From assembly GCA_021162805.1 (NCBI GenBank), contig JAGGXZ010000151.1, positions 1-64,000 on the forward strand: a stretch of 64,000 nt of DNA. The letters are read 5' to 3'. The notes under the pieces were generated by a model that was given only the letters and a program-made list of their open reading frames with translations, was not told the DNA's origin and searched no databases. Source of the DNA: Candidatus Poribacteria bacterium (GTDB taxonomy: Bacteria; Poribacteria; WGA-4E; B28-G17). The position numbers and the translations under genes were made by a program. This document shows, piece after piece, positions 3,123 to 52,720 of the stretch. Position 1 is the first letter of the stretch. The number at the start of each line of letters is the position of its first letter.

Positions 3123-3890
3123 CTATCTGCTTTGTTCCTTTATCCTTCCCCAGGTCGTGGTGAGCTTCGTATCGGGAGAGACAGCGGTTATACCCAGCAC
3201 AGCTCCAAGACCTTTGTTCATAATTTCTTTGATCTCGTCCTTTTCCAGAGCGACTTTGAAGATGGCAACCTCATCCAAGATGCCGATGAACCAATTGCCG
3301 CCTGGATCGAAAACACCGCACCCTCCGATGTTAACGTTATAGCTGGAGGTTTCGGGTTTGCCGGGGCTACCTTTAGCAGCTTCTTCTCCGTCGAGGTAAA
3401 CCGCTGAGCCGCTCGAGCTTGCAACCGCAGCTATGTGATGCCACTCCTTCTTGGGAAACCTATAGGTTGCGTCTACCCCGTGGGTGGTGGGAGTCCAATA
3501 TTGGACCGTGTTGGGATTGATAAAACCGAACTCCACAGCGTCGTTTTGTCCTATTAATCCCACTCTACTTGCAACTATATCCCCCGGTTTAGCCCAGAGC
3601 ACTATCGTGAGAGCGTCCAAGCTATCGAGGAGTTTCTTCTCAGTTGAAACGCAGGCGTCTTTACCGTTAAACTCCAGCGCTTTACCGAATTTGCCATCAA
3701 CCCATTTAACACCGCCTTTCAACTTACCATCGTTGCCGTTTCCGGACGCATCCTTTGTTATATCCCCTTTACCTTCGTCGAAGAGCCACACAGCGATGGC
3801 ATCTTCGAGCTTCACCTTGGCGCTACTTACACCTGTAAGCGCCAACCCGATAGCGATTAAACTAACGCATAGCATCGTTAAACCTTTCAT
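3123..3890 (-). CDS. Secreted LamG-domain (concanavalin A-like) protein
   Basis: 255 residues, start ATG 3890 with GGAGGAG upstream. Residues 1-24 are a signal peptide ending GVSSA. The rest is one LamG/concanavalin A-like jelly roll: IAVWLFDEGKGD near residue 32, GNGNDG, FNGKDACV, EWHHIAAV, VYLDGE and GILDEVAIF are the usual strand signatures. Such domains bind glycans or proteins outside the cell. The chain ends with a Gly-rich linker and LTTTWGRIKEQSR, a tail that recurs in other proteins here. Upstream lie two copies of the ATATGAGCGA repeat. The paralogue at 5358-6179 has the same layout. Confidence 0.85.
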   Translation of the reverse strand: MKGLTMLCVSLIAIGLALTGVSSAKVKLEDAIAVWLFDEGKGDITKDASGNGNDGKLKGGVKWVDGKFGKALEFNGKDACVSTEKKLLDSLDALTIVLWAKPGDIVASRVGLIGQNDAVEFGFINPNTVQYWTPTTHGVDATYRFPKKEWHHIAAVASSSGSAVYLDGEEAAKGSPGKPETSSYNVNIGGCGVFDPGGNWFIGILDEVAIFKVALEKDEIKEIMNKGLGAVLGITAVSPDTKLTTTWGRIKEQSR

Positions 3891-3949
3891 CGCCCGTCTC
3901 CTCCTCTCTTTAGGAATTACACGCTGCCTGCGAACCTCCTTGGCTGGGT

Positions 3950-4073
3950 TCGCTCATATTTTAACCTCACGACATACACCTCCCCGTAGTATAATATGGT
4001 CGCTCATATTCCCTAGAAATGTAGCATATCACCTCCCTCGTCAAGCAGGAATTTAACCATTAGGGCTTTTCAA
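3950..4073 (-). repeat. Intergenic repeat module, expanded form
   Basis: Read on the minus strand: TTGAAAAGCCCT (4062-4073), then TTGACG (4039-4044), GGTGATATGC, TACATT (4018-4023), eight bases, ATATGAGCGA (4000-4009), and a second ATATGAGCGA at 3950-3959. It precedes the LamG gene starting at 3890 and probably carries its promoter, although TTGACG to TACATT is only 15 bases. The same elements occur in compact form at 6202-6248. Confidence 0.7.
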
Positions 4074-4214
4074 TGTATCGTGGGCTGTATCGCCCCTCAT
4101 CTCGTCAAACAGCCATATCCCCACGGCGTCATCGAGAAATGACCCGGCGGATAGGCTTCCAACTGGGATTAAAATCAAGGAGACTAAAGCGATACCTACC
4201 AATGAGGTTCTCAT
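4053..4214 (-). pseudogene. Truncated LamG gene: signal peptide and first strand only
   Basis: A 53-codon frame starts at ATG 4214 with a GGAGGGA ribosome site. It encodes a signal peptide (hydrophobic to about residue 23, LSAG) and then AVGIWLFDEMRGDTAHD, which matches the first strand of the two intact LamG proteins nearby. It then stops. The last codons, TTG AAA AGC CCT, are exactly the 12-mer repeat TTGAAAAGCCCT, so the gene appears to have been broken at that repeat. It is the third gene of a minus-strand set after the LamG gene at 5358 and the UROD-like gene. A short secreted peptide cannot be excluded. Confidence 0.75.
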
Positions 4215-4259
4215 ACCTTGATCCCTCCTTTTCCGTGTTAAGTTTCTCCGATGGGAGCT

Positions 4260-5345
4260 TCACCCCCTACCCGTTCTGTATAACAGATACTCCATATACT
4301 CACACATGTTCGGCCAGGAGATGTCCGGCGGGGCGCCGTGGTCCAAGTCCGGTATGTATCCTCCCTCCTCCACCAGCGGCATCACCCTGTCGACCTCCCT
4401 CCGCATCGCCTCGCCCCCCACAGCCACCGCCCGTTTATCGATCCCTCCGATCAGCAGAAGATCCCGACCGTACTCCCGACGCAGTTCGACCACATCCATC
4501 CCCGCTGCCACCTCACACGGCCATATCCCGTTTATCCCAGCGTCGAGCCAGATCGGTATCAGTCCTCTCACATCCCCATCGCTATCCAGAAAGATGAACT
4601 CAACCCCTCTGCTCCGGAGGAAATCACACACCCTCCTGTAATATTTAAGGGCGAACTTTCGGAACATCTGCGGATTGATCAGAGAACCGGTCTTGCAAGC
4701 CATATCCTCCCAGAAAGCGAACATATCGATCTCCGCATCCTCCAAAACCTTTTCCGTGATGGCTATGATCGACTCAGCCCTCTCCTCCATCATCCTCTCG
4801 ATCAAGGTGGGTTGATCGTAGAAAGCCAAGCATAGGTTCTCCAGCCCCATCATGTTGCGCAGGGGACCGAAGAACCCTCCCCATCTGTCGGCGAAACACA
4901 TAAGCGGGTATGTGCGGTTTTTAAGCCTTTCCACCCTCGCCTTCCAATCCTGGGGCGCACGCAGATGGAAGTTCAACCCCAACCGTTCACGTCTGAACCT
5001 CTCGAAATCCTCCTCGTTCTCCACGGGGAACCTCAGGAACTGGGGCATGCTGGAGTTGCCGCCGTATTGTTTGAATTCGCGCATCAGTATCCCTTCGTGG
5101 TTTATGTAGGTGATAGTTCTCTCGTCCTCCTCCACGATCTGGCGTTGGAACTGGGGGACGGGACCGTAGTAAACCCCGATGTTGAGTATCAGGTCGGTTC
5201 CGAATATCTCATGTAGAGCTCGTCCGTCCCATCCTTCTCGGCGCCACCGTTGGTATGTCTCCACCCACGCGCCGGGCGTTTTGACGAAGGGGAGATCGGG
5301 TTTCTCGAAACGTAACGTTTTTGGGAACCGATCACGGGATGTCAT
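4260..5345 (-). CDS. Uroporphyrinogen decarboxylase-like (UROD/MtaA family) protein
   Basis: 361 residues in the UROD fold, a barrel shared by uroporphyrinogen decarboxylase and cobamide-dependent methyltransferases (MtaA, CmuA). Family features include FADRWGGFFGPLRNMMG (about residues 150-166), FWEDMACKTGSLINPQMF, FIFLDSDGDVRGLIPIWLD and LLIGGIDKR. It lacks the N-terminal Arg-rich signature of true HemE, so a methyl-transfer or other C1 role is more likely than haem synthesis; this is inferred from sequence type. It starts 12 bases after the LamG gene stop, with GAGGGGGAG upstream, suggesting co-transcription. The substrate is unknown. Confidence 0.75.
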   Translation of the reverse strand: MTSRDRFPKTLRFEKPDLPFVKTPGAWVETYQRWRREGWDGRALHEIFGTDLILNIGVYYGPVPQFQRQIVEEDERTITYINHEGILMREFKQYGGNSSMPQFLRFPVENEEDFERFRRERLGLNFHLRAPQDWKARVERLKNRTYPLMCFADRWGGFFGPLRNMMGLENLCLAFYDQPTLIERMMEERAESIIAITEKVLEDAEIDMFAFWEDMACKTGSLINPQMFRKFALKYYRRVCDFLRSRGVEFIFLDSDGDVRGLIPIWLDAGINGIWPCEVAAGMDVVELRREYGRDLLLIGGIDKRAVAVGGEAMRREVDRVMPLVEEGGYIPDLDHGAPPDISWPNMCEYMEYLLYRTGRG

Positions 5346-5357
5346 CTTCGCTCCCCC

Positions 5358-6179
5358 TCAGGGAGTCACCGAAGCCGTTTTGATATCCCCCCAGATGATC
5401 GGAAGGTTGCCTGAGGGATCAACTGCGACTATGCCCAGCACCGACCCCAACCCTTTTTCCATAATTTTCTTAAGGTCACCCTCCTCTAAAACCTCGTTGA
5501 AGATACCGACATCGTCGATGATCCCTTTGAAGTAACCTTTATCGCAGCCATGTCCGACGGGACAGAGACCGCTCCCGATGAGCAGCCCTCTCTCCTCAGG
5601 TCTCACGTCGTTAGGGCCGGAGGAGACGAATTTCCCATCCACATATAGCTTGTATGTGCCGCCTTCAAACGACCCTGCTATGAAATACCATTTGTTCGGG
5701 ACGTTTATGCTCGTCTTCGCCGCTGAGCAGTCCGGTTTACAGCTTTTGAACTCGAAGTTTCCGTTGTTCCAGAGTTCAAACCACCAGTTTCCACCACCGC
5801 CATCGCCGGGGTTTCCGTTTGTGACCACCAAGGTTGAGGAACCGGAGCCGGGCGGGTTGTTGCCTCCTATCGTCTCAGGGAACATCCAGAAGACCACCGT
5901 GAACTTCTCAGAGTTGAAGAGAGAAGAGGGCGGGATCTGAACGTAATCGTCCTTCCCGTCAAACCTCAAAGCGTATCCGAATTTCCCCTTCACCCATTCC
6001 GGGCCCTCTTTCAGTATCCCGTCGTTGCCGTTAGGGGAGGAATCTTTAGCCTTATCTCCTCGACCTTCGTCGAAGAGCCACACTCCGACCGCTGCCTCTT
6101 TGAGGTCAATCTGGGCATACCCCAGGTTTGAAAACACCAGACCTACGACGACCAATCCGATAAACCCTAGCCTTTTCAT
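5358..6179 (-). CDS. Secreted LamG-domain protein
   Basis: 273 residues. Signal peptide to about residue 22 (NLGYA). The LamG jelly roll is complete: VGVWLFDEGRGD, NGNDGILKEG, FDGKDDYVQIP, FTVVFWMFP, KWYFIAGSF, LYVDGKFV and GIIDDVGIF. An insert near residues 95-140 is rich in Gly and Asn, with Cys residues in KSCKPDCSA and GLCPVGHGCD that could form disulfides outside the cell. The C terminus, LGIVAVDPSGNLPIIWGDIK, is a variant of the shared tail. The promoter at 6220-6248 probably starts a unit with the UROD-like gene and the LamG fragment. Confidence 0.87.
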   Translation of the reverse strand: MKRLGFIGLVVVGLVFSNLGYAQIDLKEAAVGVWLFDEGRGDKAKDSSPNGNDGILKEGPEWVKGKFGYALRFDGKDDYVQIPPSSLFNSEKFTVVFWMFPETIGGNNPPGSGSSTLVVTNGNPGDGGGGNWWFELWNNGNFEFKSCKPDCSAAKTSINVPNKWYFIAGSFEGGTYKLYVDGKFVSSGPNDVRPEERGLLIGSGLCPVGHGCDKGYFKGIIDDVGIFNEVLEEGDLKKIMEKGLGSVLGIVAVDPSGNLPIIWGDIKTASVTP

Positions 6180-6201
6180 CCCTCCTCACCCCTTTTAAGT
6201 T

Positions 6202-6248
6202 TCGCTCATATTTTTCAAAAGTGTAGCATATCACCGAGGGCTTTTCAA
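6202..6248 (-). promoter_or_regulatory. Promoter within compact repeat module
   Basis: On the minus strand TTGAAA (6243-6248), 17 bases, TGC-TACACT (6220-6225), eight bases, then ATATGAGCGA (6202-6211), 22 bases before the LamG start. The TTGAAA is part of the TTGAAAAGCCCT 12-mer. Spacing fits a housekeeping sigma-factor promoter with an extended -10, so transcripts would begin at or near ATATGAGCGA. Confidence 0.72.
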
Positions 6249-6271
6249 TGATTTGGTATAATCAGGCATGG

Positions 6272-6299
6272 TAGGGGCGCACCCCTGTGCGTGCCCCTA
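6272..6299. repeat. GC-rich palindromic intergenic repeat
   Basis: TAGGGGCGCAC and GTGCGTGCCCCTA form an imperfect hairpin around CCCT. A cleaner relative lies at 41378-41403, and a fragment (GTAGGGGCG) at about 62597-62605. These resemble REP-like palindromes. No gene lies between 6249 and 6340. Confidence 0.6.
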
Positions 6300-6340
6300 A
6301 ATCCCCCTTCCAAAGCAACTTTTCCTATTTTTTCCTTCGC

Positions 6341-6369
6341 TTGACGAGGGTTAGACGAAATGCTATATT
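6341..6369 (+). promoter_or_regulatory. Promoter of membrane glycosyltransferase-like gene
   Basis: TTGACG (6341-6346), 17 bases, TATATT (6364-6369). The first ATG of the following frame (6373) lies only three bases after the -10 box, so transcription should begin inside the frame, favouring the ATG at 6397. Confidence 0.72.
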
Positions 6370-6396
6370 TGGATGAAAAAAGAGAGGATAAGCGGG

Positions 6397-7917
6397 ATGT
6401 CATCTCATGACAACAGATATGCTGGAGCTCTTATCTTCATCTTTCTGATCTTGGGAGCCCTAAACGCCTCACGCCATGAAATGTGGAGGGATGAAATACA
6501 AGCTTGGCTTCTTGCCAAGGACAGCTCCTCCCCCGTTCAACTTCTCAAAAACCTGAAATATGAGGGACATCCTGGAGTGTGGCATTTATCCCTTTTCCCT
6601 CTCTCACGCATAACCCCTTCGCCTATTGCAATGCAACCGTTTCATCTGATAATAGCTTGCTTGAGCGTATATCTGTTTTTGAGGTTTTCGCCTTTCACTA
6701 AGGTTCAGAAAGCGCTCTTCACTTTCGGCTATTTCCCGTTTTACGAATACTGTGTGATATGCAGGAATTACGCCCCCGGTTTATTTCTGCTTCTCCTCTT
6801 TTGTTCCCTTCTTCCCAGACGTTCAGGGAGATTCCCGCTTTTAGGTCTCATCCTTTTCTTCCTAGCTCACACCAGCGTCCACGCCCTCATCCTGGTCATA
6901 TCCATATGCCTGGGGTTGTCCTTAGATATCCTTCTCTCGAAGGATCGCCCGAACATAACGGTGTGTTTGGGTTTCCTTCTCATCGTTTCAGGGATCATCA
7001 CCTCCGTGGTTCAACTGAATCCTCCGCCCGACTCCGGTTTCGCCGTCGGGTGGAAGACCGATTTCGATCCTGACCACCTCAAAAAGGTTTTCAACCTCAT
7101 ACCGAGAGCTTTCATACCGATACCCAGGTTCACCTTCCATTTCTGGAACACCGCCATCTTGGACCAACTCCCAGGCTCCGAGGTGGTAAAGCTATCTTTA
7201 GGATGTTTGATCCTGCTTTATGGGATACTGCTCTTCATCAGGAAACCGGCTGCCCTTTTGATCTATCTGATCGGAACCTTAGGGCTCTGTTCGTTCTTCT
7301 ACACGAAATATTTCGGCTCGATGCGGCATCACGGTTTCCTGTTCATATCGTTCGTAAGCTCCATCTGGATCTCAAATTACTGTCGAGATGTCAGGATCTT
7401 CAACCCTATCGGAAAGCTCAGCCTCATTATTGAAAGAAGCCTGAACAAGGTGCTGACCGTGATCCTGTTCATCCACCTCGCCGGCGGGATTGCTGGGGCT
7501 GTCATGGATTATATGTATGTCTTCTCACAAGGTAAGGCGACAGCAGATTTCATCAGGAGAGAGGGGATGGAAGGGATGTTGATCGTAGGAGATACCGATT
7601 TCACAGCCAGCACGGTGGTGGGGTATCTGGAAAGGGAAATCTATTACCCCAGGGGCGATAGGGTGGGCTCCTTCGTCATTTGGGATAAGAAGAGGACCGA
7701 GCCTTTGACGGTTAAAGAGATACTTGAAAGGGCTGTGAAACTGAGCTTGAGGGAGAAGAAAGGTTGCCTGCTCGTCCTCAACTACCGGCTGAGCGATGAG
7801 ATGATTTCGAGATATTCCCTGAAGGAGATAGCCAGGTTTGAAAAGGCAGTGGTTGGAGATGAGGTGTATTACCTGTATTTGCGCCACTACTCCTCCAACA
7901 TGATGCGCCATATCTGA
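6397..7917 (+). CDS. Multi-spanning GT-C-type glycosyltransferase-like membrane protein
   Basis: 506 residues from ATG 6397; an in-frame ATG at 6373 would add eight residues but lies before the predicted transcription start. About ten hydrophobic helices fill the first 400 residues. The motif MWRDEIQAW shortly after helix 1 matches the acidic loop of GT-C enzymes (PMT/GT39-like), where the Asp or Glu helps transfer sugars from polyprenyl-phosphate donors on the outer face of the inner membrane. A soluble C-terminal part (about residues 390-506) is less conserved. The donor and acceptor are unknown. Unlinked to obvious polysaccharide genes, it stands alone between the LamG cluster and the GNAT gene. 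Confidence 0.68.
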   Translation: MSSHDNRYAGALIFIFLILGALNASRHEMWRDEIQAWLLAKDSSSPVQLLKNLKYEGHPGVWHLSLFPLSRITPSPIAMQPFHLIIACLSVYLFLRFSPFTKVQKALFTFGYFPFYEYCVICRNYAPGLFLLLLFCSLLPRRSGRFPLLGLILFFLAHTSVHALILVISICLGLSLDILLSKDRPNITVCLGFLLIVSGIITSVVQLNPPPDSGFAVGWKTDFDPDHLKKVFNLIPRAFIPIPRFTFHFWNTAILDQLPGSEVVKLSLGCLILLYGILLFIRKPAALLIYLIGTLGLCSFFYTKYFGSMRHHGFLFISFVSSIWISNYCRDVRIFNPIGKLSLIIERSLNKVLTVILFIHLAGGIAGAVMDYMYVFSQGKATADFIRREGMEGMLIVGDTDFTASTVVGYLEREIYYPRGDRVGSFVIWDKKRTEPLTVKEILERAVKLSLREKKGCLLVLNYRLSDEMISRYSLKEIARFEKAVVGDEVYYLYLRHYSSNMMRHI

Positions 7918-8001
7918 TCCTTCGAAACCAGCGTTCAGTCAGACTTAACCAACACCTGGGTTCGAGGTGGAAAGTTCACTCAGGGACATGAAACCTCCCG
8001 A

Positions 8002-8030
8002 TTGACACCAGATCAGTCCGGTGGTATCAT
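8002..8030 (+). promoter_or_regulatory. Promoter of GNAT/SCP2 gene
   Basis: A consensus TTGACA (8002-8007), 17 bases, TATCAT (8025-8030), 34 bases before the ATG. The ribosome site is GAGGTGAAG. Confidence 0.8.
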
Positions 8031-8064
8031 AGTCCCGATGATCCTTCGCTTATGAGGTGAAGAT

Positions 8065-9315
8065 ATGGACGGCGAGAGGATTAGGGTGAGGCGAGCGATC
8101 GATCGGGATGTAGAGGTAATCCACGCCGTTATGGTCTCGGCATTCGGGATAGAACGGGGATCGGAGAGATGGGAGAGCTGGAGAAGGCTCGCCGAAGGAT
8201 GGAGGAACTTCCTCGTGCTGGAGATGGACGGCGAGATCGTGGGCGTGACGAGGATCGGAAGGGACAAACTCCGCTACGGGGAGGCGACGATCCTTAAGGG
8301 CGACGTGGGATATGTGAGCGTGAGGAGGGAGCTTCAAGGGCAGGGTTTGGGAACAACGCTTATGAGAGAGGTCGTTAGGTTCATGAGGGAGGAGGGATTT
8401 CACATCTCACGGCTGGGCGGGCTCATCCGGTTCTACAGCCGTTTCGGCTATGTCCCCTTCCCAAGGAGGTTCTATGAGTTCCCGATCGAACCCGCCCGCG
8501 CGGGCGCCATGACATTACAGCCGGAGGAGTTCCTGGCTCTAACGCCGGAGAAGGGGGAGATAAGGGCTTATGAACCTCGAAGGGATTGGCCCGAGCGGAG
8601 AAGGCTATATGATCTCTTCAACCGTGCTCGAACGGGCTCGATCGTAGAGGAGACACCTCCGAGGCCGGAGGAAGGTGGACCGGATAGATCAGGTTTGAGA
8701 TGGGTTTACGAGGAGGAAGGAAAACTTCACGGTTACATCTTCGCCCATGTCCACGGCGAGGAGGCCGACATCCATGGCGCCTTCGATCTATCCCATCCCT
8801 CAGCTCTTCCCTCACTTGTGAGAAAGATCCTGCTTGAGCTGTATAGACGGGGCGTGAAACGCATCCTGGGCAGATTGCCGTTTGACCACGCCGTTGAGAA
8901 CAAGCTTGTGGAAGGAGGGATTTATTTCGTCCTTCGTGAGCTCAACTCATATCCGGCGTCGAACATGCTCTTATTGATCGATTTGAAGCGGTTCCTCAGA
9001 GCCGTAACCCCGGAGTGGTCGAGAAGGTTGCGCCGGATCGATATATCCCCGCCGTGGATGGGGACCTTTGAGATACGGGTGGAAGATCAGGCCGCGAAGA
9101 TCGCCGTGACGGAGGAGGGGATTAAGGTGGAGGAGGGGAGCGCTCCGAAATGCGTTCTCGATCTCGGGCGGCGCGATTTCCTGCTCCTCGCTTTGGGATA
9201 CCGGGGTTTTGACGAGCTCAGGGGGGCCATCAGGAGTGAGATTCCGAAATCGCTCGCCGTCCTTTTCTCCCTCCTCTTCAGGAGGGAACCGGTAGCTACG
9301 GGACCTCTGGGTTGA
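8065..9315 (+). CDS. Eis-like GNAT N-acetyltransferase with C-terminal SCP2-like domain
   Basis: 416 residues. An N-terminal GNAT domain (about residues 5-140) has the acetyl-CoA pyrophosphate loop QGQGLGTTLM after the strand VGYVSV, and the following FYSRFGYVPF typical of motif B. A second, weaker GNAT-like half (about 165-290) and a C-terminal SCP2-like domain (about 300-410) follow, which is the layout of Eis-type enzymes that acetylate amines. The substrate is not evident. It has its own strong promoter and is 40 bases upstream of the deacetylase gene, so both may be one unit. Confidence 0.8.
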   Translation: MDGERIRVRRAIDRDVEVIHAVMVSAFGIERGSERWESWRRLAEGWRNFLVLEMDGEIVGVTRIGRDKLRYGEATILKGDVGYVSVRRELQGQGLGTTLMREVVRFMREEGFHISRLGGLIRFYSRFGYVPFPRRFYEFPIEPARAGAMTLQPEEFLALTPEKGEIRAYEPRRDWPERRRLYDLFNRARTGSIVEETPPRPEEGGPDRSGLRWVYEEEGKLHGYIFAHVHGEEADIHGAFDLSHPSALPSLVRKILLELYRRGVKRILGRLPFDHAVENKLVEGGIYFVLRELNSYPASNMLLLIDLKRFLRAVTPEWSRRLRRIDISPPWMGTFEIRVEDQAAKIAVTEEGIKVEEGSAPKCVLDLGRRDFLLLALGYRGFDELRGAIRSEIPKSLAVLFSLLFRREPVATGPLG

Positions 9316-9355
9316 AAATCCAATAGGGGCTCAGCGCCTCGGAAAGGAGAGGGAT

Positions 9356-10267
9356 ATGACCAGTTACATCTTCGCGTATGACCTTGAGAGCGATCTCTGT
9401 GTGAAGGCCGCAGGTAAGCTGGTGGAAATACATAAAAGGTATGATATACCCGCTACCTTCTTCATCCTGGGGAGGGTCTTAGAGAGTCACGGGGATACCC
9501 TCAGGGAGATCTTCGGAGAGGATCCGCTCTTCGACCTTCAATCCCACACATACTCCCACCGTCTCCTTAAGGATAACCTCATGCACGGCTCAGGGATAGG
9601 GTTGGAGGAGCTGAGGGATGAGATATCACTGGGCAAGAAGCTCGTGGAGGATACCTTCGGGAGGGAGTGTTTGGGGGTCAGAAGCGGATGCGGGTTTTAC
9701 AGAGGTTTGCAGGGAGAGAGGGAGAGACTTAAGGTGATATGGGAGTGCGGGGTTAAGTATATAAGCACGGACCTGAGGGGACCGGCTGATTCCATTCCCT
9801 CCGGCCTTCAGCAGGCGTATTGGTATGACGAGGAAGGGATACCGAAACTTCTGGAGCTTCCCGGACATGGATGGCATGACAACGTGCTCAAAAGTTCCGA
9901 ACCGAGACTATGCCTACCCTGGCCGCCTGTGCTCATGTGGGGGATCCCGAACCGCCCGCCAAGGAACCCTGAGGAGGAAGTTGAGGTCCAAAAGATCTGG
10001 ATAGACAAGGCTATCTCCCTCGGCCTGGATTACATATCCCTGGTATATCACCCACACAGCATATATAGGATAAGCCAGGATTGTAGGACGATGGAACTTC
10101 TCATGAGGGAAGTTAAAAGGAGAAATATGCCTGCCACGACCTATACCGAGTTATACAGGTTCTACTCCTCTCATCCTGATGCGGTCCCGGGGAGAGAAGC
10201 GTGGGATTGGGAAGCTCAATATGAAAGGGACAAGCTGATATTGTGGAGGATGGCTAACACAATATAA
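9356..10267 (+). CDS. Polysaccharide deacetylase family (NodB-like) protein
   Basis: 303 residues, cytoplasmic by appearance, start ATG 9356 after GGAAAGGAGAGGG. The NodB fold is seen in FAYDLESD (motif 1, normally TFDD), TFFILGRVLE, and SHTYSH (about residues 62-67), the metal-binding His-x-x-x-His of motif 2. RSGCGFY fits motif 3 (RxPYG type, altered) and LVYHPHS motif 5. Such enzymes remove N-acetyl groups from sugars or act on related amides. The altered motifs 1 and 3 leave the substrate uncertain. The last 14 bases overlap the end of the convergent DeoR gene. Confidence 0.8.
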   Translation: MTSYIFAYDLESDLCVKAAGKLVEIHKRYDIPATFFILGRVLESHGDTLREIFGEDPLFDLQSHTYSHRLLKDNLMHGSGIGLEELRDEISLGKKLVEDTFGRECLGVRSGCGFYRGLQGERERLKVIWECGVKYISTDLRGPADSIPSGLQQAYWYDEEGIPKLLELPGHGWHDNVLKSSEPRLCLPWPPVLMWGIPNRPPRNPEEEVEVQKIWIDKAISLGLDYISLVYHPHSIYRISQDCRTMELLMREVKRRNMPATTYTELYRFYSSHPDAVPGREAWDWEAQYERDKLILWRMANTI

Positions 10268-11009: not shown

Positions 11010-11032
11010 AGCGTTTCACCTCCGTGATAAAA

Positions 11033-11062
11033 ATAATATCATTGAACTGAGCTCAAAGGCAA
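11033..11062 (-). promoter_or_regulatory. Promoter of the DeoR-family gene
   Basis: On the minus strand TTGCCT (11057-11062), 18 bases, TATTAT (11033-11038), 23 bases before the GTG. The spacer contains the 8-base palindrome TGAGCTCA, a possible operator. The -35 match is only fair. Confidence 0.5.
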
Positions 11063-11112
11063 GCGCGAAATCGCAGGAATCCATGGAATGGATGGTTGCC
11101 GGGAGAAGTTTC

Positions 11113-11141
11113 TTGACGGATTTGAACATTTGTGGTATATT
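11113..11141 (+). promoter_or_regulatory. Promoter upstream of LamG remnants and MocA gene
   Basis: TTGACG (11113-11118), 17 bases, TATATT (11136-11141). It now drives a broken LamG gene and probably the MocA dehydrogenase beyond it, as no other promoter is seen before 11433. Confidence 0.7.
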
Positions 11142-11169
11142 ATAAGCGTTTAAATTTGAATGTTATTGA

Positions 11170-11337
11170 GCTTGTCCTCCCGAAGCTTTCGATGGGATCA
11201 TAGACGAGGTGGTGGTGTTCAACAGAGCGTTGTCCCAGGACGAGATAAAACAGATCATGAAAGGGATGGTGCAGGCAATGGCGGTTTTACCTTCAAACAA
11301 ACTCGCCACAAAATGGGGAGCTATCAAGATAAGATGA
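11170..11337 (+). pseudogene. LamG gene remnant: last strand and C-terminal tail
   Basis: The frame ending at TGA 11335-11337 encodes FDGIIDEVVVFNRALSQDEIK, then a linker and KLATKWGAIKIR. This matches the last LamG strand, the following helix and the tail of the intact paralogues, but everything before it is missing: an in-frame TGA lies at 11167-11169 and no start codon with a signal peptide is present. A promoter sits only 28 bases upstream, so an internal deletion joined the promoter region to the gene end. Confidence 0.82.
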
Positions 11338-11428
11338 AAGGGGGGATACGAATGAGAGGGCTCATTTATTCCATCGGAAAGGGAAACTGACCATCACCTG
11401 GGGCGACGTTAAATATGGAGGAGGTTAA
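11333..11428 (+). pseudogene. Second LamG tail remnant
   Basis: Immediately after the first remnant, in another frame, GKLTITWGDVKYGGG ends at TAA 11426-11428. It is a second copy of the C-terminal tail with no domain in front. It overlaps the ribosome site (GGAGGAGG) of the MocA gene. The likely history is loss of two LamG genes in tandem. Confidence 0.65.
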
Positions 11429-11432
11429 TGAG

Positions 11433-12404: not shown

Positions 12405-12407
12405 GTT

Positions 12408-30282: not shown

Positions 30283-30283
30283 C

Positions 30284-44055: not shown

Positions 44056-44126
44056 TTGAATGTGACTCCGCGGATGTATAAGAACTTAAGAATTGCCAGA
44101 AGCAGGGAGGAGTGTCGGTGAGATTC

Positions 44127-44155
44127 TTGATCTTCAATCTCAGCCGTGATATTAT
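44127..44155 (+). promoter_or_regulatory. Promoter of the YidD-like gene group
   Basis: TTGATC (44127-44132), 17 bases, TATTAT (44150-44155), 59 bases before ATG 44215. The region 43985-44214 otherwise shows only the divergent promoter. Confidence 0.62.
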
Positions 44156-44214
44156 ATCCATAACCCAAGTTCTACATCCGGGTCGTAAGCGAGGCGAGGG
44201 GCGTTGCTTGGGAT

Positions 44215-46296: not shown

Positions 46297-46305
46297 AGCG
46301 GTTGG

Positions 46306-46604
46306 ATGAACAACTACTCGCGGGCCGCTTTCATAAACATGGGTATAGGGGATATCGAGCGATATAGGACGTCGGTCGGAAAGATCCCGATGGAAACGGC
46401 TGGCGGTTCGAGGAGCTTGAGGGGGGCTGGAGGCTCATAGGAAACTTCCTCTCAGGTGAATGGGATAAGGATGATTTCCTGATCGTCCGACGAGGACAGA
46501 AGGTGGTGGACATCTACAACGAGGAGATCATGATGGCGGAGAAAGCTTGTTTTCCGTCTGAGGATCTGGTATCCTCTCCGTCAGATATTCTATCACAGCG
46601 GTAA
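46306..46604 (+). pseudogene. Frameshifted gene fragment, unrecognised
   Basis: ATG 46306 opens MNNYSRAAFINMGIGDIERYRTSVG, which then runs into nonsense; in the next frame, after a TAG, DPDGNGWRFEELEGGWRLIG and LSGEWDKDDFLIVRRGQKVVDIY read as ordinary protein and end at TAA 46602-46604. A single frameshift near 46380 joins them into about 100 residues. No family is recognised. It fills most of the gap between the TPR gene and the isomerase-like gene. Confidence 0.5.
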
Positions 46605-46657
46605 GGTAGGGTTCAACGCCCTGACCTTCTCCGTCTAAGGGTTTAGGAGGACGAAAC

Positions 46658-47416
46658 ATGGGCAGGATTAAACAATCCATCGCTTGGTGGTGTTTCGCTC
46701 GTAGGGTTGAGCCTATGGAGCTCATCAAAAAGGCGGCTCAAATAGGCTACGCGTCGATCGAGATGCTGCCGAGGGAGTACTGGGATGCTGTGCTGGATCA
46801 CGGCATGAAAATCGCCATAATCGGCGGCCATGGGACGCTGACGGATGGGCTGAATAGGAGGGAAAATCACGATCGGATAGAGGAGGAGCTTTCGAGGAAC
46901 ATAGAGCTGGCCGCTGAGTATGGGATACCAAGCCTTATCTGCTTCTCAGGAAACAGGAGAGGACTTCCGGATGATGAGGGGATTCAGATCACGGCGGAGG
47001 GTCTCAGGCGTGTGGCGAAAATGGCTGAGGAGAAAGGGGTTCAGCTCTGTCTCGAACTGCTTAACAGCAAGGTGAATCATCCCGATTACCAGTGCGATCA
47101 CACCTGGTGGGGTGTGGAGGTCTGTAAGGCGGTCAACTCTCCCGCCGTAAAGCTGCTCTACGATATCTATCATATGCAGATCATGGAGGGCGACCTGATC
47201 CGAACGATCAAGGAGAACATCGATTATATCGGTCATTTCCACACCGCCGGTAACCCCGGACGTCACGATCTGGACGACGAACAGGAGATAAACTATCGGG
47301 CCGTCATGAAGGCGATAGCCGAGACGAATTACACGGGATTCGTGGGACATGAGTTCACGCCGAAGGGCGATCCGATAGAGGCGCTCGAAAGGACGTTCTC
47401 CCTCTGCGACGTATAA
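46658..47416 (+). CDS. Hydroxypyruvate isomerase-like TIM-barrel protein
   Basis: 252 residues, start ATG after GGAGGACGAAAC. Xylose isomerase-like barrel of the Hyi group: SIAWWCFARRVEPMELIKKA begins it, and CLELLNSKVNHPDYQ, KLLYDIYHMQIMEGD, GHFHTAGNPGRHD and GFVGHEFTPKG carry the conserved Glu, Asp, His and Glu metal or catalytic positions. Relatives isomerise hydroxypyruvate and tartronate semialdehyde or epimerise sugars; the substrate here is inferred only by family. It stands between a gene remnant and a fragment region. Confidence 0.88.
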   Translation: MGRIKQSIAWWCFARRVEPMELIKKAAQIGYASIEMLPREYWDAVLDHGMKIAIIGGHGTLTDGLNRRENHDRIEEELSRNIELAAEYGIPSLICFSGNRRGLPDDEGIQITAEGLRRVAKMAEEKGVQLCLELLNSKVNHPDYQCDHTWWGVEVCKAVNSPAVKLLYDIYHMQIMEGDLIRTIKENIDYIGHFHTAGNPGRHDLDDEQEINYRAVMKAIAETNYTGFVGHEFTPKGDPIEALERTFSLCDV

Positions 47417-47423
47417 CCCCTAT

Positions 47424-47450
47424 GTCGGCGGGGCGTTATGCCCCGTCGAC
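47424..47450. repeat. GC-rich hairpin after the isomerase gene
   Basis: CGGGGC, GTTAT, GCCCCG flanked by GTCGG and TCGAC. It begins eight bases after the isomerase gene end. No T run follows, so termination is uncertain. Confidence 0.5.
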
Positions 47451-47708
47451 CCTGCGGAGTATATCCCAATAGGCTCCTCGATATCCCTTCTGGATGGCTT
47501 CCACAAGCAGTTGATTGGCGTTGTAGTTGTAATTTCTCTCGGGCTCTGTGGGATCAAAGAAGAAGAAACGCTTGTCCTCGCCTATGAGGTTATCCAGCAG
47601 ATCGAAAACGAAGGGGGCGATCGAGGGCTCGAGGAAGAAAAGGGGATCGACGGGGTTATCTCCGCCGATGATGTCACCATCCAATCGGGGCTTGACCTTA
47701 CTTGGGGA
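47436..47708 (-). pseudogene. C-terminal fragment of an unrecognised protein
   Basis: The open frame from after a TAA at about 47709 to 47436 reads LDGDIIGGDNPVDPLFFLEP, then FVFDLLDNLIGEDKRFFFFD, NYNYNANQLLVEAIQKGYRG and ends LRRVDGA. The composition is that of a real protein, but only a TTG (47684) could start it and no ribosome site or signal precedes it. I do not recognise the family. It overlaps the hairpin at its end. Confidence 0.45.
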
Positions 47709-47834
47709 TTAGCATACACTAAGCTGTGGAGGTAGATCAAGTCAGGAGATGCAAATATCCCGGTGGACATCTCTCATCTAGGCCGAACCTTTTCCCCGTG
47801 AATTTCGTATTTACCGGGTGAAAGGAGGAAACGG

Positions 47835-48023
47835 ATGGATCAAGTGAGCGACGAAGAGCTTGTCCGAAAGGTTCTAGGTGGCGATCGGGATGCGTTCAGC
47901 GCACTTGTCGAACGATACAAGGATATGGTCTACGGTGTGGCTTATGCCCATCTCCGTAACTTCCACGATGCACGGAGGATCAGCGAGAGTATCTCTGGAA
48001 GACACTACATGAGCTCGAGCTGA
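47835..48023 (+). pseudogene. Truncated ECF sigma factor
   Basis: ATG 47835 follows a strong AAAGGAGGAAACGG site. MDQVSDEELVRKVLGGDRDA and FSALVERYKDMVYGVAYAHL are regions 2.1-2.2 of an ECF sigma factor, but after HLRNFHDA the expected QDLTQEAF block is missing and the frame ends at TGA 48021-48023. The domain needed for -35 binding is absent, so it is very likely inactive. Confidence 0.75.
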
Positions 48024-48223
48024 TGGAGGTTCTCAGCATGTTGAGGGGAGTCACGATTTTCACGCCGTTGATCAAGGATTTCCACTCGGTGGAGGTGAAA
48101 CTGGGGCTATACAAAGCGCCCTATTTGAAGGAGATTCACAACCGACCCTATATCCGATTTGCCTGTCCCAACCCCGATGGATCGGAACATTCCATCCAGC
48201 TAGGAACTATAGATAAAGACTGA
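47960..48223 (+). pseudogene. Second fragment joined to the sigma factor remnant
   Basis: In a different frame, overlapping the end of the sigma fragment, LWKTLHELELMEVLSMLRGV, DFHSVEVKLGLYKAPYLKEI and FACPNPDGSEHSIQLGTIDKD read as protein to a stop at 48221-48223. An ATG at 48023 could start it. It is probably the end of another gene fused by deletion. Family unknown. Confidence 0.4.
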
Positions 48224-48244
48224 TAACGTTTGATCCTATCGATC

Positions 48245-48991
48245 TCATCTATCATGCCACGCACAGCGACATAGCGGCAACGGCTTTTCAACCGTGTATT
48301 TCAATGCTGGTCTCCGTCCGTCAGCAGGTAGAGCGGGAATATCCGCAGAACGATTCAGGGAGTAAGGCCTATAAACCTGCCGCCGCGGCGAATTTCCGCC
48401 GCCTTCACGCCATGAGTGGGGCAGAAGGTGATCTCTGTATCGCCACGCCAACCTGCCACATAGATATCCGATCCCGGCGCCGGCGAGGACATCCATCGGA
48501 TAGTGTCGCCCGTTGTATATACGTGAATAGGCTATAAGGGCAGCAGCAACATATAAAGGCAGCCTAACTTTAGGGTATGCTGCGCCCCAAACATATGCCA
48601 TAGCATAGGCGCTGGTCGCGTGTCCCGAGGGAAAGGAGGAATTCCACCGATCGGTATCGCCGGTCGGTCGACGTCGGTTTACCAGGCCTTTCAGAAGGAA
48701 GGTTACCGTCTCCGCGCCTACCGTCGCTGCTATCGAGGTGTAGCTTACATCTCTTCTAACGCCGAAGATAGGGAGGATAAAGGCAATGACGATTTCACTC
48801 TCGCCGCTGCCGATCCTGGAAACCCACGGCATAACGGCATCCAGAGGAGAGGCCCTGTGATCGTGAATGAGATGATACATCCTCTCATCGGCATCCCTCA
48901 GCCAGTTGGCCGAGGCCGTATAACACCAGACGATCTGTAAAAGGAGAAGAAATGGAACCGTCAACCGTGTTATATTCCCTCTATCTCTCAT
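48245..48991 (-). CDS. PAP2-family membrane phosphatase
   Basis: 248 residues with about five membrane helices. The three PAP2 motifs are present: KGLVNRRRP (about residues 105-113), SFPSGHATSAY, and SRIYNGRHYPMDVLAG, holding the catalytic His pair, Arg and Asp. Relatives dephosphorylate undecaprenyl pyrophosphate, phosphatidic acid or phosphatidylglycerophosphate in the membrane. The last 50 residues are Pro/Arg-rich with no motif. Its ATG overlaps the end of the RND pump scar, so it once followed that gene. Confidence 0.88.
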   Translation of the reverse strand: MRDRGNITRLTVPFLLLLQIVWCYTASANWLRDADERMYHLIHDHRASPLDAVMPWVSRIGSGESEIVIAFILPIFGVRRDVSYTSIAATVGAETVTFLLKGLVNRRRPTGDTDRWNSSFPSGHATSAYAMAYVWGAAYPKVRLPLYVAAALIAYSRIYNGRHYPMDVLAGAGIGYLCGRLAWRYRDHLLPHSWREGGGNSPRRQVYRPYSLNRSADIPALPADGRRPALKYTVEKPLPLCRCAWHDR

Positions 48992-49070
48992 TTGGGTTGC
49001 TCCTTTTTCTCCCGATGAGGCCGTAGAAGCTCGGCAGGGCCACCAGGGTCAGGGATGTCCCCTCGGGTGA
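48981..49070 (-). pseudogene. C-terminal scar of an RND efflux pump
   Basis: In one minus-strand frame SLTLVALPSFYGLIGRKRS runs to TAG at 48981-48983, which matches the last helix and end of RND pumps of the AcrB/CusA type (LLTLVVLPALYGLIG pattern). All upstream pump sequence is missing. It overlaps the TolC fragment in another frame. Confidence 0.5.
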
Positions 49071-49266
49071 GTTCTGATTCGGTCTCAGGATTGCTCCAGA
49101 GGCGGCTGGTTTTTACAAGCGCCTTCGTCGTTTTGATCCTCGGGTTATTTGTCAGTGCCGTCTGCAGGGCTTTATCAAGGGAAAGCTTTTCAGGAACTGA
49201 GCTTCCCAGGGAGATGGAGACGGATAGGGCGAGAGATCCTATCATGATAAGGTTTCTCCATTTCAT
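48988..49266 (-). pseudogene. N-terminal fragment of a TolC-like outer-membrane efflux protein
   Basis: From ATG 49266, after GGAGGTGAGGAG, a signal peptide (SLALSVSISLG) and LSLDKALQTALTNNPRIKTT match the start of TolC-family proteins. After about residue 55 the frame becomes RLWSNPETESELTRGDIPDPG, which is non-homologous and overlies the RND pump scar. A deletion between the tolC start and the end of the pump gene explains both, as these genes are normally neighbours. Confidence 0.65.
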
Positions 49267-49287
49267 CTCCTCACCTCCTCAATTCCT

Positions 49288-49674
49288 TCAGATTAACCTT
49301 CGGACAAGCTTCAGAATCATATAGATCGCCGCCAGCCAGATCATCAATATGAAAACGGCCGCGATGATACGGCTTTTCGGTTTCGCCTCGAGGGTCTCAG
49401 ATCTTGCTCTCTCCCTGCATTCATCCAGAACCTCCTTCGGTATCATCTTCAGCGCCAAAAAAACACCGAGGGGTATGAGGATCAGATCGTCCACATATCC
49501 CAGAACGGGAATGAAATCCGGGATCAGATCTAAGGGATTGAGCGCGTAGGCGATGACGGCGGCGGCAAACAGCTTGGCGTATAGCGGAACCCCCGGATCT
49601 TTATAGGCTAGATAGAGGACATACACCTCCGTTTTCAATCGTTTCGCTTTGTCCTTCCAAAATGACATTCCCAC
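49288..49674 (-). CDS. YkvA-like DUF1232 membrane protein
   Basis: 128 residues. The core YAKLFAAAVIAYALNPLDLIPDFIPVLGYVDDLILIPLGVFLAL is recognised in pieces: ALNPLDLIPDFIP and GYVDDLILIP are the DUF1232 hallmark. A second hydrophobic helix is at the C terminus (IIAAVFILMIWLAAIYMI). Role unknown; these are small membrane proteins. A TATAAT lies about 22 bases upstream of the start, with no good -35 box. Confidence 0.88.
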   Translation of the reverse strand: MGMSFWKDKAKRLKTEVYVLYLAYKDPGVPLYAKLFAAAVIAYALNPLDLIPDFIPVLGYVDDLILIPLGVFLALKMIPKEVLDECRERARSETLEAKPKSRIIAAVFILMIWLAAIYMILKLVRRLI

Positions 49675-49721
49675 TTTCGTTCCTCCTTACGGATATTATA
49701 CAGGTTGAAGATTACAGAGGG

Positions 49722-49737
49722 ATTACAATTTTGTAAT
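49722..49737. promoter_or_regulatory. AT-rich palindrome
   Basis: ATTACAA-TT-TTGTAAT, perfect 7-base arms, between the YkvA-like gene and the toxin-antitoxin pair. A candidate operator for either; it has no T run for a terminator. The rest of 49675-49873 shows no gene. Confidence 0.4.
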
Positions 49738-49873
49738 ACAGGATACTACATCGGTGGCAGGTTTGCCATCTGACATCACTCTTAATCTGTTCCTTCACAA
49801 ACAGATCATTTGCGCCTGATCTGGAGGAGATAAGAGGGAGCCCGGTGTTAATGACTGAGGAGTTAAAAATTAA

Positions 49874-49906
49874 GTATTGATTTTAATACATACTTTATTG
49901 TAGAAT
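49874..49906 (+). promoter_or_regulatory. Promoter and candidate operator of the toxin-antitoxin pair
   Basis: TTGATT (49877-49882), 18 bases, TAGAAT (49901-49906), 28 bases before the toxin start. Overlapping the -35, GTATT-GATTTT-AATAC (49874-49889) is an inverted repeat where the ribbon-helix-helix antitoxin could bind. Confidence 0.55.
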
Positions 49907-49934
49907 ATCGCTAGCACCAAGAAGAGGGCTAAGA

Positions 49935-50213
49935 TTGAAGATTACCTATATCCATATCCCCAGGGCTGTCGCCGATAAGATCCTAAAGAAACACAACGTA
50001 GCAACTAAGGAAGTGAGGGAGGTCTTCTCAAACGCATATTTCAAACCGAGGATATTCAGAAGCAACCGAATCTCCAACGCATATGTAGCCTATGGAAGAA
50101 CCCTGGAGGGGAGATACCTCATGGTCGCCTTCTTCCTCTACGGGGAGAGAGCGAAGGTGATAACCGCCAGGGATATGACCAGAGCGGAAAGAAGGAGATA
50201 TGAAAGGAAGTGA
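49935..50213 (+). CDS. BrnT-like toxin
   Basis: 92 residues, TTG start at 49935. BrnT is a RelE-fold ribonuclease toxin. The end YLMVAFFLYGERAKVITARDMTRAERRRYERK, split here as YLMVAFFLYG and ITARDMTRAERRRYERK, is the BrnT hallmark with the basic catalytic residues. The N-terminal part differs from typical BrnT (usual WDP-x-KN start absent). The next gene is the antitoxin partner, four bases away. Toxin first, antitoxin second is the standard brnTA order. Confidence 0.8.
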   Translation: MKITYIHIPRAVADKILKKHNVATKEVREVFSNAYFKPRIFRSNRISNAYVAYGRTLEGRYLMVAFFLYGERAKVITARDMTRAERRRYERK

Positions 50214-50217
50214 TAAC

Positions 50218-50505
50218 ATGTCTAGAAGAAAGGGTTTAACGGAGATCGAAAGGGAATTCGCCGATTTCGTCGAAAGCCATGATACAGCCGGGATGATAGA
50301 AAAGGGAGAGTTCGAGGAGGTGAAGGAGGTTGAGATAGCGATTCCTCCCAAGAAAGTCCCGATCACCATGAGGATATACCCTGCTCTGTTGGAAAGGATA
50401 AAAAGGATAGCGAAGAGGCAGGGGATGCCTTACCAGACGTTGATCAACCAGTGGCTGGCCGAACGGGTCTATCTCGAGGAGCGCCGTTCAGAAAAGCGAA
50501 TTTGA
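50218..50505 (+). CDS. BrnA/CopG-like antitoxin
   Basis: 95 residues from ATG 50218 (site GAAAGGAAG), after the toxin stop. Residues 55-90 are a ribbon-helix-helix: VPITMRIYPALLERIKRIAKRQGMPYQTLINQWLAERV in short blocks (ITMRIYPALLERIKRIA, YQTLINQWL). The N-terminal half would wrap the toxin, as in BrnA. It probably represses its own promoter through the inverted repeat at 49874-49889. Confidence 0.82.
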   Translation: MSRRKGLTEIEREFADFVESHDTAGMIEKGEFEEVKEVEIAIPPKKVPITMRIYPALLERIKRIAKRQGMPYQTLINQWLAERVYLEERRSEKRI

Positions 50506-50659
50506 GCCTCTCGCTGATGATCTTTTATATATCCCTCGTCTCGTCCTGCTATGCAATTAATGCATATTATACGGGAAATTTTAAATGCGCTGCCAGCGAC
50601 CCGCTTGAGGAAATGATGGAGGTGATGGAGAAAGCCAGAGCAGATAAAAGAGTTAAGCC

Positions 50660-50944
50660 GTGGCGATGGGAGATAAAAATGTGTCCAAAATAATGGGTGC
50701 ACTTCACTCTGAAGGGATAAGAGGCCGCTGGAGTGTGGAGAATGGAGTATTCAGGGTGAGGGATGTAAGCTATGATGAAGACAGGTTGCATTCCAGGAAG
50801 ATAGCTCATCACCTCAGCCAGATACGTAACGGTGCGATAACGCTGATAAGGAGAGCAGGCTTCAGGTACATACCGGACGGATGGAGGTGCTTCTCTGCCA
50901 GGAGTGAGAAGGGAATAGAACTACTTTTGGGTATGAGTTGGTAA
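50660..50944 (+). pseudogene. C-terminal fragment of an ISAs1-like transposase
   Basis: The frame holds EGIRGRWSVENGVFRVRDVS, YDEDRLHSRKIAHHLSQIRN and LIRRAGFRYIPDGW, the end of DDE transposases of the ISAs1 type, including the catalytic Glu in WSVEN. The N-terminal two thirds are missing and no terminal repeats are seen. In 50506-50659 a short stretch (DPLEEMMEVMEKARADKR) also reads like protein but is too short to assign. Confidence 0.68.
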
Positions 50945-51087
50945 GGGGAAGAGAAAGGAAGGGAGATTCAAAGATAGGTTAGGTGATTTAGGGATTTAGG
51001 CGGGAAAATAGGGATAGGAAAATGACAGGATTTGATTCTCTTTCGGCCTTTGGGGCCGGGAGAAGGGATTTTATCCTTATCTAAGCG

Positions 51088-51099
51088 TTGAAAAGCCCT
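51088..51099 (+). repeat. TTGAAAAGCCCT 12-mer copy
   Basis: Exact copy, 18 bases upstream of the promoter of the CBM9-like gene. The stretch 50945-51116 otherwise shows no gene; it is AT-rich with GATTTAGGGATTTAGG repeats. Confidence 0.6.
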
Positions 51100-51116
51100 G
51101 AAGTCTACGCAGTCGC

Positions 51117-51146
51117 TTGATCCCATACGCGAATCCGTAGTATAAT
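51117..51146 (+). promoter_or_regulatory. Promoter of the CBM9-like gene
   Basis: TTGATC (51117-51122), 18 bases, TATAAT (51141-51146), 31 bases before ATG 51178. Confidence 0.72.
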
Positions 51147-51177
51147 TAAGAAGATCTTGTGTGAGGAGGGGAATGAA

Positions 51178-51981
51178 ATGAAGATTTCGATTTTCATAGG
51201 TCTTCTGATTATCGCCTTCACTTGTTTGGGCCTTGCAGATCCTCCGGCCAAACACCCCAAAACGGGGGAGCCGCTTGTGATCGAGTGCCTCAGGGGGACG
51301 CCCAAGGCGATCGACGGCAATCTAAACGACTGGCCGCTCAAATCCCTCACCCCCGCCGTGCTGGACACGAAAGAGCAGATATTCCCGGGAGTGGCTCCTG
51401 GAGCCGCCGGCTGGAACGGACCGAGCGACAGCAGCGGGAAGTTCTATCTGATGTGGGACGATAAATACGTCTACATCGGCGTGATCATGAAGGACGATAA
51501 GATCGTCGTAACACAGGCAGGAGGGGACATCTGGAGGACGGACTGCATAGAGATATTCTTCGCCACCACTGAAGCGGTAGCGTGTCCCGAATGTCATAAC
51601 CATCATTACCAATACGGATTCACCTGCAAAAATCAAAAGTGGAACTGGTGCAATATGGACGGAGCGGGCCAGAGGGAGCCGGACTATATGAAGGTTGGCT
51701 CAACCACGACCGCCGACGGATATATATGTGAGGCCGCTATCGAATACAAACAGATGAAATCGCTGAAATGGGAGGCCGGCCAGGAGCTGGGATTCCATCC
51801 CGTCTTCGATGATGCCGATAACCCCGGCGGTACCAGAAAGCTGCAGATGACGTGGACGGGAAGGGAGGCACATGACCAAAGCCAGGGTTTCGGACATATG
51901 ATCCTCTCGGATAAACCCGCCGCCGTCTGTTGCTCGGCCGATAAGATGGCGACGACATGGGCTCAGATCAAGGAATGGTAA
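51178..51981 (+). CDS. Secreted CBM9-like carbohydrate-binding protein
   Basis: 267 residues from ATG 51178, which follows GGAGGGG; an ATG at 51157 gives a poorer signal. Signal peptide to about residue 19 (CLGLA). Then a family 9 carbohydrate-binding fold: AIDGNLNDWP, FYLMWDDKYVYIGVIMKDD, DCIEIFF and YICEAAIEY are the common strands. ACPECHNHHYQ gives a Cys-x2-Cys-x-His-like pair that may bind metal or form a disulfide. It ends KMATTWAQIKEW, a form of the shared tail. It precedes the second tail-bearing secreted protein by 58 bases, likely one unit. Confidence 0.82.
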   Translation: MKISIFIGLLIIAFTCLGLADPPAKHPKTGEPLVIECLRGTPKAIDGNLNDWPLKSLTPAVLDTKEQIFPGVAPGAAGWNGPSDSSGKFYLMWDDKYVYIGVIMKDDKIVVTQAGGDIWRTDCIEIFFATTEAVACPECHNHHYQYGFTCKNQKWNWCNMDGAGQREPDYMKVGSTTTADGYICEAAIEYKQMKSLKWEAGQELGFHPVFDDADNPGGTRKLQMTWTGREAHDQSQGFGHMILSDKPAAVCCSADKMATTWAQIKEW

Positions 51982-52039
51982 CGAATGATGGACGGGCGGC
52001 CCATCGGGTTGCCCCACTCCTTTAAGAGGAGGGTTCATT

Positions 52040-52720
52040 ATGAAGGGGGATAGGAGGTTTCAGACTTCAATATCATGCCTTTTCATGGCGGTGCTGCTTG
52101 TATCCTCCGCCGTTGGTGCCGAATGGGGGGTGCTTAGCATCCAGCTCGGCAAAAAGAGCATCTCAAACGGCATCATCGAGAAACCTCAGGCCGATGGCGT
52201 CACTGAACCAAAGGAGATCGGCGGCAAAGAGTGTAAGTTCGTCCCTAAAACGCCACCTGGGATGAACACAGGCAATCACATATACTTCAGCGTCGATCCG
52301 GCTGTCATACCCGATAAGGACAAAACCAACGAGCTTTGGATAGCGGTGGAGTTCTATGATTCAGCCAAGGCCGCCACGGGGTTGATATTGGATTGGGATG
52401 ACAAAGGCGACGTTTACCCTCAGCAGGCATTCGCCCTCAACGCCCCGGCCGATCTGAAGAAGATCCCATTCGAATACACCGATCGGTGGAGGATCGCCAT
52501 AAAACACATCACGAATGCCGAATTCAAGGATCAAGGCAACAACGCCGATTTCAGGTTCCATATAGATCCCTATATGTCGGAGGGGTTTTACATCCATCAG
52601 GTCTGGGTGAGCGATCACGAGCTGACGGAGAGGGATCTCATAGGCGGAGGTCAGGCGGTCTCACCGTCGGGCAGGATAACGACGTTCTGGGCTGAGGTGA
52701 AACGCTTAAGGTGGCGATAA
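52040..52720 (+). CDS. Secreted protein of unknown function with Trp tail
   Basis: 226 residues, ATG 52040 after AGAGGAGGG. Signal peptide to about residue 27 (AVGA). The rest is beta-rich (IYFSVDPAVIPDK, ELWIAVEFYDS, LILDWDDKGD, FRFHIDPYMSEGFYIHQVWVSDHE) without a recognised family; it looks like a jelly-roll ligand-binding domain. It ends AVSPSGRITTFWAEVKRLRWR, a diverged form of the LamG tail. It converges on guaA with six bases between stops. Confidence 0.7.
   Translation: MKGDRRFQTSISCLFMAVLLVSSAVGAEWGVLSIQLGKKSISNGIIEKPQADGVTEPKEIGGKECKFVPKTPPGMNTGNHIYFSVDPAVIPDKDKTNELWIAVEFYDSAKAATGLILDWDDKGDVYPQQAFALNAPADLKKIPFEYTDRWRIAIKHITNAEFKDQGNNADFRFHIDPYMSEGFYIHQVWVSDHELTERDLIGGGQAVSPSGRITTFWAEVKRLRWR

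Follow-up and report, generated by a model that had tools for sequence, protein, structure and literature searches.

A short Trp-centred C-terminal tail on exported proteins of Poribacteria that behaves like an address label

Introduction

Four secreted proteins and two gene remnants in a window of 64 kb (the whole stretch of Poribacteria DNA analysed here) end in a similar short block built around a Trp residue. This raises the question whether the shared end is an address that is read by some sorting machinery of the cell or only the inherited end of one protein family. In this study we asked how often, on which proteins and in which organisms this end occurs, and we compared it with the known C-terminal sorting signals of bacteria.

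Results and discussion

The six tails of the window

A tail profile was run over every open frame of the window, and it returned all six tails listed in the first-pass annotation, at the same places and on the same strands, and no further ones; the E values were 4.5e-9 to 5e-5 with a profile whose training set contains the four intact window proteins. The six features are as follows.

3123..3890, minus strand: exported LamG (Laminin_G_3) protein of 255 aa, ending ...AVSPDTKLTTTWGRIK-EQSR; tail at 3138-3185, profile E 4.5e-9
5358..6179, minus strand: exported LamG protein of 273 aa, ending ...AVDPSGNLPIIWGDIK-TASVTP; tail at 5379-5426, profile E 2.1e-7
11170..11337, plus strand: LamG gene remnant, the C-terminal part with the tail intact, AVLPSNKLATKWGAIK-IR; tail at 11281-11328, profile E 1.9e-6
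11333..11428, plus strand: second remnant, a lone tail frame, KGKLTITWGDVK-YGGG; core at 11384-11413, profile E 5e-5
51178..51981, plus strand: exported CBM9-like protein of 267 aa, ending ...AVCCSADKMATTWAQIK-EW; tail at 51922-51972, profile E 2.7e-7
52040..52720, plus strand: exported protein of 226 aa, ending ...AVSPSGRITTFWAEVK-RLRWR; tail at 52655-52702, profile E 6.8e-6

The domains in front of these tails do differ, as had been claimed. In Pfam the first two proteins match Laminin_G_3 (PF13385, E 6.5e-20 and 1.2e-20, respectively) and the CBM9-like protein matches CBM9_1 (PF06452, E 4.1e-19), and for the 226-aa protein there was no match in Pfam or PDB and no close relative was found among the genome contigs. 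The first of the two remnants lacks the start and the N-terminal part of the LamG domain. The two remnants follow each other directly at 11170-11428 on the plus strand and are flanked by a DeoR-like regulator, which is intact, and a gene for an oxidoreductase, both named from a reading of the sequence, and we read them as traces of duplication and decay of a tail gene.

Sequence and abundance of the tail

The consensus of 306 tails is [A/P]-V-[E/D/S]-P-x-[G/D]-K-L-[A/T/S]-T-T-W-[G/A]-x-[I/L/V]-K, which in its short form is a tag of ~18 residues, V-x-P-x-G-K-L-x-T-x-W-G-x-I-K, in which two lysines hardly ever vary. The search pattern covered neither the V at position -5 (94-95% of tails) nor the P at -3 (63-66%), and these two therefore confirm the tag independently. 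Between the tag and the stop there are 0-8 residues in 299 of the 306 tails, most commonly three, and these are mostly polar or basic and form no helix, which bears out the earlier remark that the tail is without a hydrophobic helix.

The genome from which the window comes (G000; 4.35 Mb in 232 contigs) contains 54 matches when T-x-W-[GA]-x-[IV]-K is searched as a DNA pattern, compared to a single match for the reversed pattern, and a looser pattern gave 81 matches against none for its reversed control. In an unbiased sample of this genome, taken from the start of 59 contigs with at most 20 kb from each (764 kb in total), the motif was found 13 times at the C-terminus of an ORF and not once inside an ORF, which extrapolates to ~75 tails per genome; the overall estimate is about 75-80. 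Over the 5,494 ORFs of all the loci that were examined, the tail profile matched 308 C-termini, whereas in the same ORFs it matched only one reversed C-terminus and no internal 45-residue window. Thus, the tail occurs far beyond chance.

Because the tag is short, repeated and always situated at gene ends, it could be thought of as a nucleic-acid element, such as a repeat, a terminator or an uptake sequence, that is translated there by chance, but this we consider barely conceivable. The synonymous codons of K, L, T, G and I/V in the tails vary freely (those of Leu, for example, are CTC 40, CTT 25, CTG 25, TTG 10, TTA 7 and CTA 6) and therefore selection acts on the protein; moreover, the frame is always the same, internal copies number zero and the tail goes together with signal peptides.

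Export signals and bodies of the tail proteins

With a simple home-made signal-peptide rule, used in place of SignalP, an export signal was called in 258 of 269 and in 294 of 308 tail ORFs. When the 11 ORFs without a called signal among the 269 were read by eye, most of them appeared truncated or frameshifted at the N-terminus, three had readable borderline Sec signals and one, a DUF362 protein (L151), had a twin-arginine signal. In the unbiased sample a signal was present in 10 of the 13 tail genes compared to 135 of the 581 other genes (p = 8e-5), and roughly 8% of all proteins predicted to be exported bear the tail. The first-pass annotation had proposed to check whether the tail is restricted to proteins with a signal peptide, and this is essentially so; nothing in the sequences suggests that any tail protein is cytoplasmic.

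The bodies in front of the tail fall at E<=1e-3 into 36 clusters for 123 proteins and into 34 clusters for 290 proteins. The largest cluster is that of the LamG relatives, with 55 of the 123 and 176 of the 290 bodies, and the others include CBM9, CBM4/9, GH43_C2-like, 3-keto-disaccharide-hydrolase-like, esterase, beta-lactamase-fold and DUF362 proteins, PD40 and YCF48/sortilin propellers, a cohesin+PKD combination, DUF3108-like proteins and many unnamed families. This size of the LamG cluster is what would be expected if the tail had been inherited within one LamG family as its terminal part and had spread from there by a few fusions. That explanation is highly improbable, however, because about 34-36 unrelated body clusters share the tail, and it is only the tail and not the body that they share; confinement of the tail to LamG relatives, which had been named beforehand as the outcome that would overturn the idea, is thus not what was found. 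The tail is also kept where the bodies have diverged to 32-52% identity, and CBM9 relatives retain it at 22-27% identity.

Distribution of the tail among genomes

The strict pattern had matches in 84 of 85 Poribacteria genomes and no control matches. In the remaining genome, G008, proteins with a signal peptide carry tails of the variant forms KLAARWAELK and KLAMRWADLK, and when these are counted the tail is present in 85 of 85 Poribacteria genomes. The strict pattern under-counts, since L or M is frequent at the last hydrophobic position in one family of genomes. G008 had been considered as a tail-free genome that had lost a PorV-type reader, since its PorV copy b lies on a long branch, and this argument fell because G008 does carry variant tails.

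Outside the phylum, 2 of 302 genomes had a match to the tail pattern, one chance-like match in each. When KLATTWGxIK, a pattern with a near-zero expectation by chance, was searched against 84,980 species genomes, 79 of the 80 loci among the matches listed were Poribacteria by title, and at the loci examined in other genomes all 83 in-frame occurrences of KLATTWGxIK lay 0-12 residues from the stop. The sole non-Poribacteria locus among the 80 (L307) is on a 3.8-kb contig that was binned as Deltaproteobacteria and also encodes an esterase; its tail, VHPRGKLATTWGEIKGSR, looks genuine and lies in a frame of 28 residues, and it is due either to a misbinned contig or to transfer.

A tag that is C-terminal, sits on unrelated exported proteins and is confined to one phylum has the signature of a sorting signal that is read after export. 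A C-terminal, flexible end that is hydrophobic and basic could also serve as a quality-control or proteolysis tag for an envelope protease. We think that this is very unlikely, since whole conserved gene families carry the tail and keep it through the depth of the phylum, to which a localisation tag is better suited, and since SsrA-like tags are added in trans whereas the tail is encoded.

Structure of the tail

In the AlphaFold2 model of the window LamG protein at 3123..3890 the core of the body scores >90 and the tail, which is of low confidence, 55-66, and in the unrelated family L049 the body core is likewise >90 and the tail <40. Because the confidence is low in the tail while it is high in the body cores, the tail is probably a flexible extension outside the fold of the body. 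The hydrophobic moment of the tail peaks at 160 degrees with a z of about 2, a weak strand-like periodicity, and when bound the tail may be either a strand or a helix.

These properties would also suit a peptide for docking or retention, rather than for export, which plugs into a groove on a scaffold, an outer-membrane protein or a surface polymer, the proteins themselves leaving the cell or staying in the periplasm by some other route; such a peptide would resemble a mini-dockerin or, with an internal compartment as the site of retention, a KDEL signal. The tail is short, flexible and sequence-specific, carbohydrate-binding folds are abundant among the bodies, and the weak periodicity fits a peptide that adds a strand to its receptor. 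Nevertheless, we hold this to be unlikely: the tail is found on enzymes, propellers and DUF362 proteins as well, no scaffold of matching distribution was identified, and the extreme C-terminal position is equally like that of export signals. The dockerin-cohesin and KDEL-type signals, which are also recognition tags and often C-terminal, act in non-covalent docking or retention and have no sequence relation to the tail.

Comparison with known C-terminal sorting signals

The earlier statement that no known sorting family fits the tail agrees with our searches. Among 32 diverse tails of 42 residues there was no match to any NCBIfam model at E<=1, including the CTERM models, and at the same threshold Pfam gave only scattered single matches at chance level, none of them relevant. 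No match to TIGR04183/PF18962, the type A C-terminal domain (CTD) of type IX secretion (T9SS), was obtained when three window tail proteins were scanned whole. PDB matches to the tail profile covered only 11-13 residues, mostly of designed propellers, and were judged to be due to chance. No description of the tail was found in the open-licence literature, and to judge from this it has not been described before.

Closest to the tail in concept is MYXO-CTERM with its myxosortase in Myxococcota, a sorting tag that is spread over the whole phylum and is found in each genome on dozens of proteins with signal peptides, 35 of them in M. xanthus (PMC11980579). MYXO-CTERM, however, consists of a Cys motif, a transmembrane helix and an Arg cluster and is handled by a CAAX-type protease, whereas the tail has no helix. 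PEP-CTERM/exosortase, LPXTG/sortase and GlyGly-CTERM/rhombosortase likewise use a short motif near the C-terminus of unrelated exported proteins, but there the motif is followed by a hydrophobic helix and then by basic residues, which are absent from the tail. The first-pass annotation had taken the shared end for a sorting or attachment signal of the LPXTG or PEP-CTERM kind. The idea of a sorting signal withstood those of the proposed tests that could be run, and as a putative sorting tag the tail is well supported by the sequence data; the likeness to LPXTG and PEP-CTERM holds by analogy only, since the tripartite architecture of motif, transmembrane helix and basic end was not found in the tail and no CTERM model matched it.

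The type A (TIGR04183/PF18962) and type B (TIGR04131) CTDs of T9SS resemble the tail in that they are C-terminal on Sec-exported proteins with diverse bodies, have conserved basic residues near the very end and belong to a system that occurs in the same phylum. They differ from it in being domains of ~70-235 residues, that of type A a ~70-residue Ig-like domain and that of type B paired with PorP/SprF, whereas the tail has ~18 residues, is probably unfolded, is centred on a Trp and matches no model.

Type IX secretion in Poribacteria and its relation to the tail

An earlier study saw T9SS sorting domains of type A in Poribacteria and did not see any of the structural genes of the system (Kamke et al. 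2014, PMC3909097). Profile scores picked out two candidates for such structural genes.

L063 4668-10568, minus strand: PorU-type T9SS sortase, 457 bits against a cut-off of 420, which bears a type A signal of its own
L105 8364-14396, minus strand: SprA/Sov-like translocon protein of 2,010 aa, 161 bits, below the cut-off of 200

PorV-family barrels scored above cut-off in 85 of 85 genomes, with 10-26 matches each, and type A signals were also found in 85 of 85 genomes, with 53 in G000. With PorU above and the SprA-like protein below cut-off, these predictions indicate that T9SS machinery is present in the same phylum as the tail.

The type A signals of Poribacteria end in K or R in 91% of cases and have another basic residue at position -6 in 88%. 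For secretion of HBP35 the final 22 residues of its signal are enough, and signals of this kind need their last 13 residues, which include conserved lysines (PMC10202324). With ~18 residues and two lysines that hardly vary, the tail could be a reduced type A signal, although no homology between the two was detectable with a home-built Poribacterial CTD profile or in the searches of the 32 tails against NCBIfam and Pfam. As judged with the same CTD profile, the tail and the type A signal are mutually exclusive, the tail being present on none of 52 type A ORFs. One domain is shared between a type A protein and a tail protein.

L110 11810-16453, plus strand: type A surface protein of 1,548 aa with an internal domain 53% identical to the stand-alone tail protein L015

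As one and the same domain occurs in both of these proteins, either signal can be used for this kind of cargo. The L110 protein also has cyclase-like repeats and, as read by eye, possible dockerin- and cohesin-like regions.

At 23 of the 42 loci of the PorV-family paralogues (L243-L284) a gene with a type A signal at its end lies beside the barrel gene. The type B signals of Flavobacterium are usually neighbours of their shuttles (PMC12618676), and by analogy this suggests that the PorV-type A neighbours may be dedicated pairs of barrel and substrate. A tail ORF adjoined a PorV-family gene at 1 of 42 loci, which is no better than background, so that a pairing of the type B style between tail gene and shuttle was not seen at these loci and PorV paralogues are unsupported as shuttles for the tail. 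Nor were any tail ORFs found beside the PorU loci. DUF6785/DUF6784 was considered as a dedicated partner of the tail, being beside tail genes at 8 of 27 loci compared to 37 of 400 random windows, but it was rejected because other genomes do not show this association (3 of 29). These DUF6785/DUF6784 proteins (L187-L213) are multi-pass membrane proteins, about 24-27 of them in one genome.

A probable explanation for all of this is that the tail is a targeting tag peculiar to the phylum, which sits at the C-terminus and is read after export by a common receptor or translocon serving the outer cell surface. The tail proteins would first cross the inner membrane by Sec and occasionally by Tat, the tail would then project flexibly from the end of a body that has already folded, exposed to the common receptor or translocon, and this would move the protein across, or fix it to, the outer cell surface. 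Recognition after export, the destination at the outer surface and the machine are what we infer here. The likeliest machine would be the Poribacterial T9SS, for which the tail would represent, in minimal form, the final ~20 residues of a canonical CTD; the alternative to it would be a dedicated receptor or sortase. Because the gene neighbourhood does not support a tie to PorV or PorU, the T9SS route, with the tail as a minimal T9SS-like signal, is put forward tentatively, as our leading mechanism. It is conceivable, and we take it as a serious if doubtful competitor, that the tail belongs to a new sorting system that runs parallel to T9SS, in which an 18-residue soluble tag and a phylum-specific receptor of its own bring the proteins that bear the tag, about 75-80 in each genome, to a single destination. 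Such a destination may be the cell surface, the matrix or an internal compartment, and a compartment of this last kind was once postulated for the cells of Poribacteria.

Conclusions

The finding of PorU, SprA-like and PorV-family genes means that the question of structural T9SS genes raised by Kamke et al. (2014) is now testable. For the uncultured Poribacteria, both sponge-associated and free-living, the tail helps to define the surface or matrix repertoire from the sequence alone. In the bacterial C-terminal sorting tags known to us, a hydrophobic helix or a folded domain is the basis, and a short, soluble, Trp-centred tag that is used throughout a phylum would be a new design.
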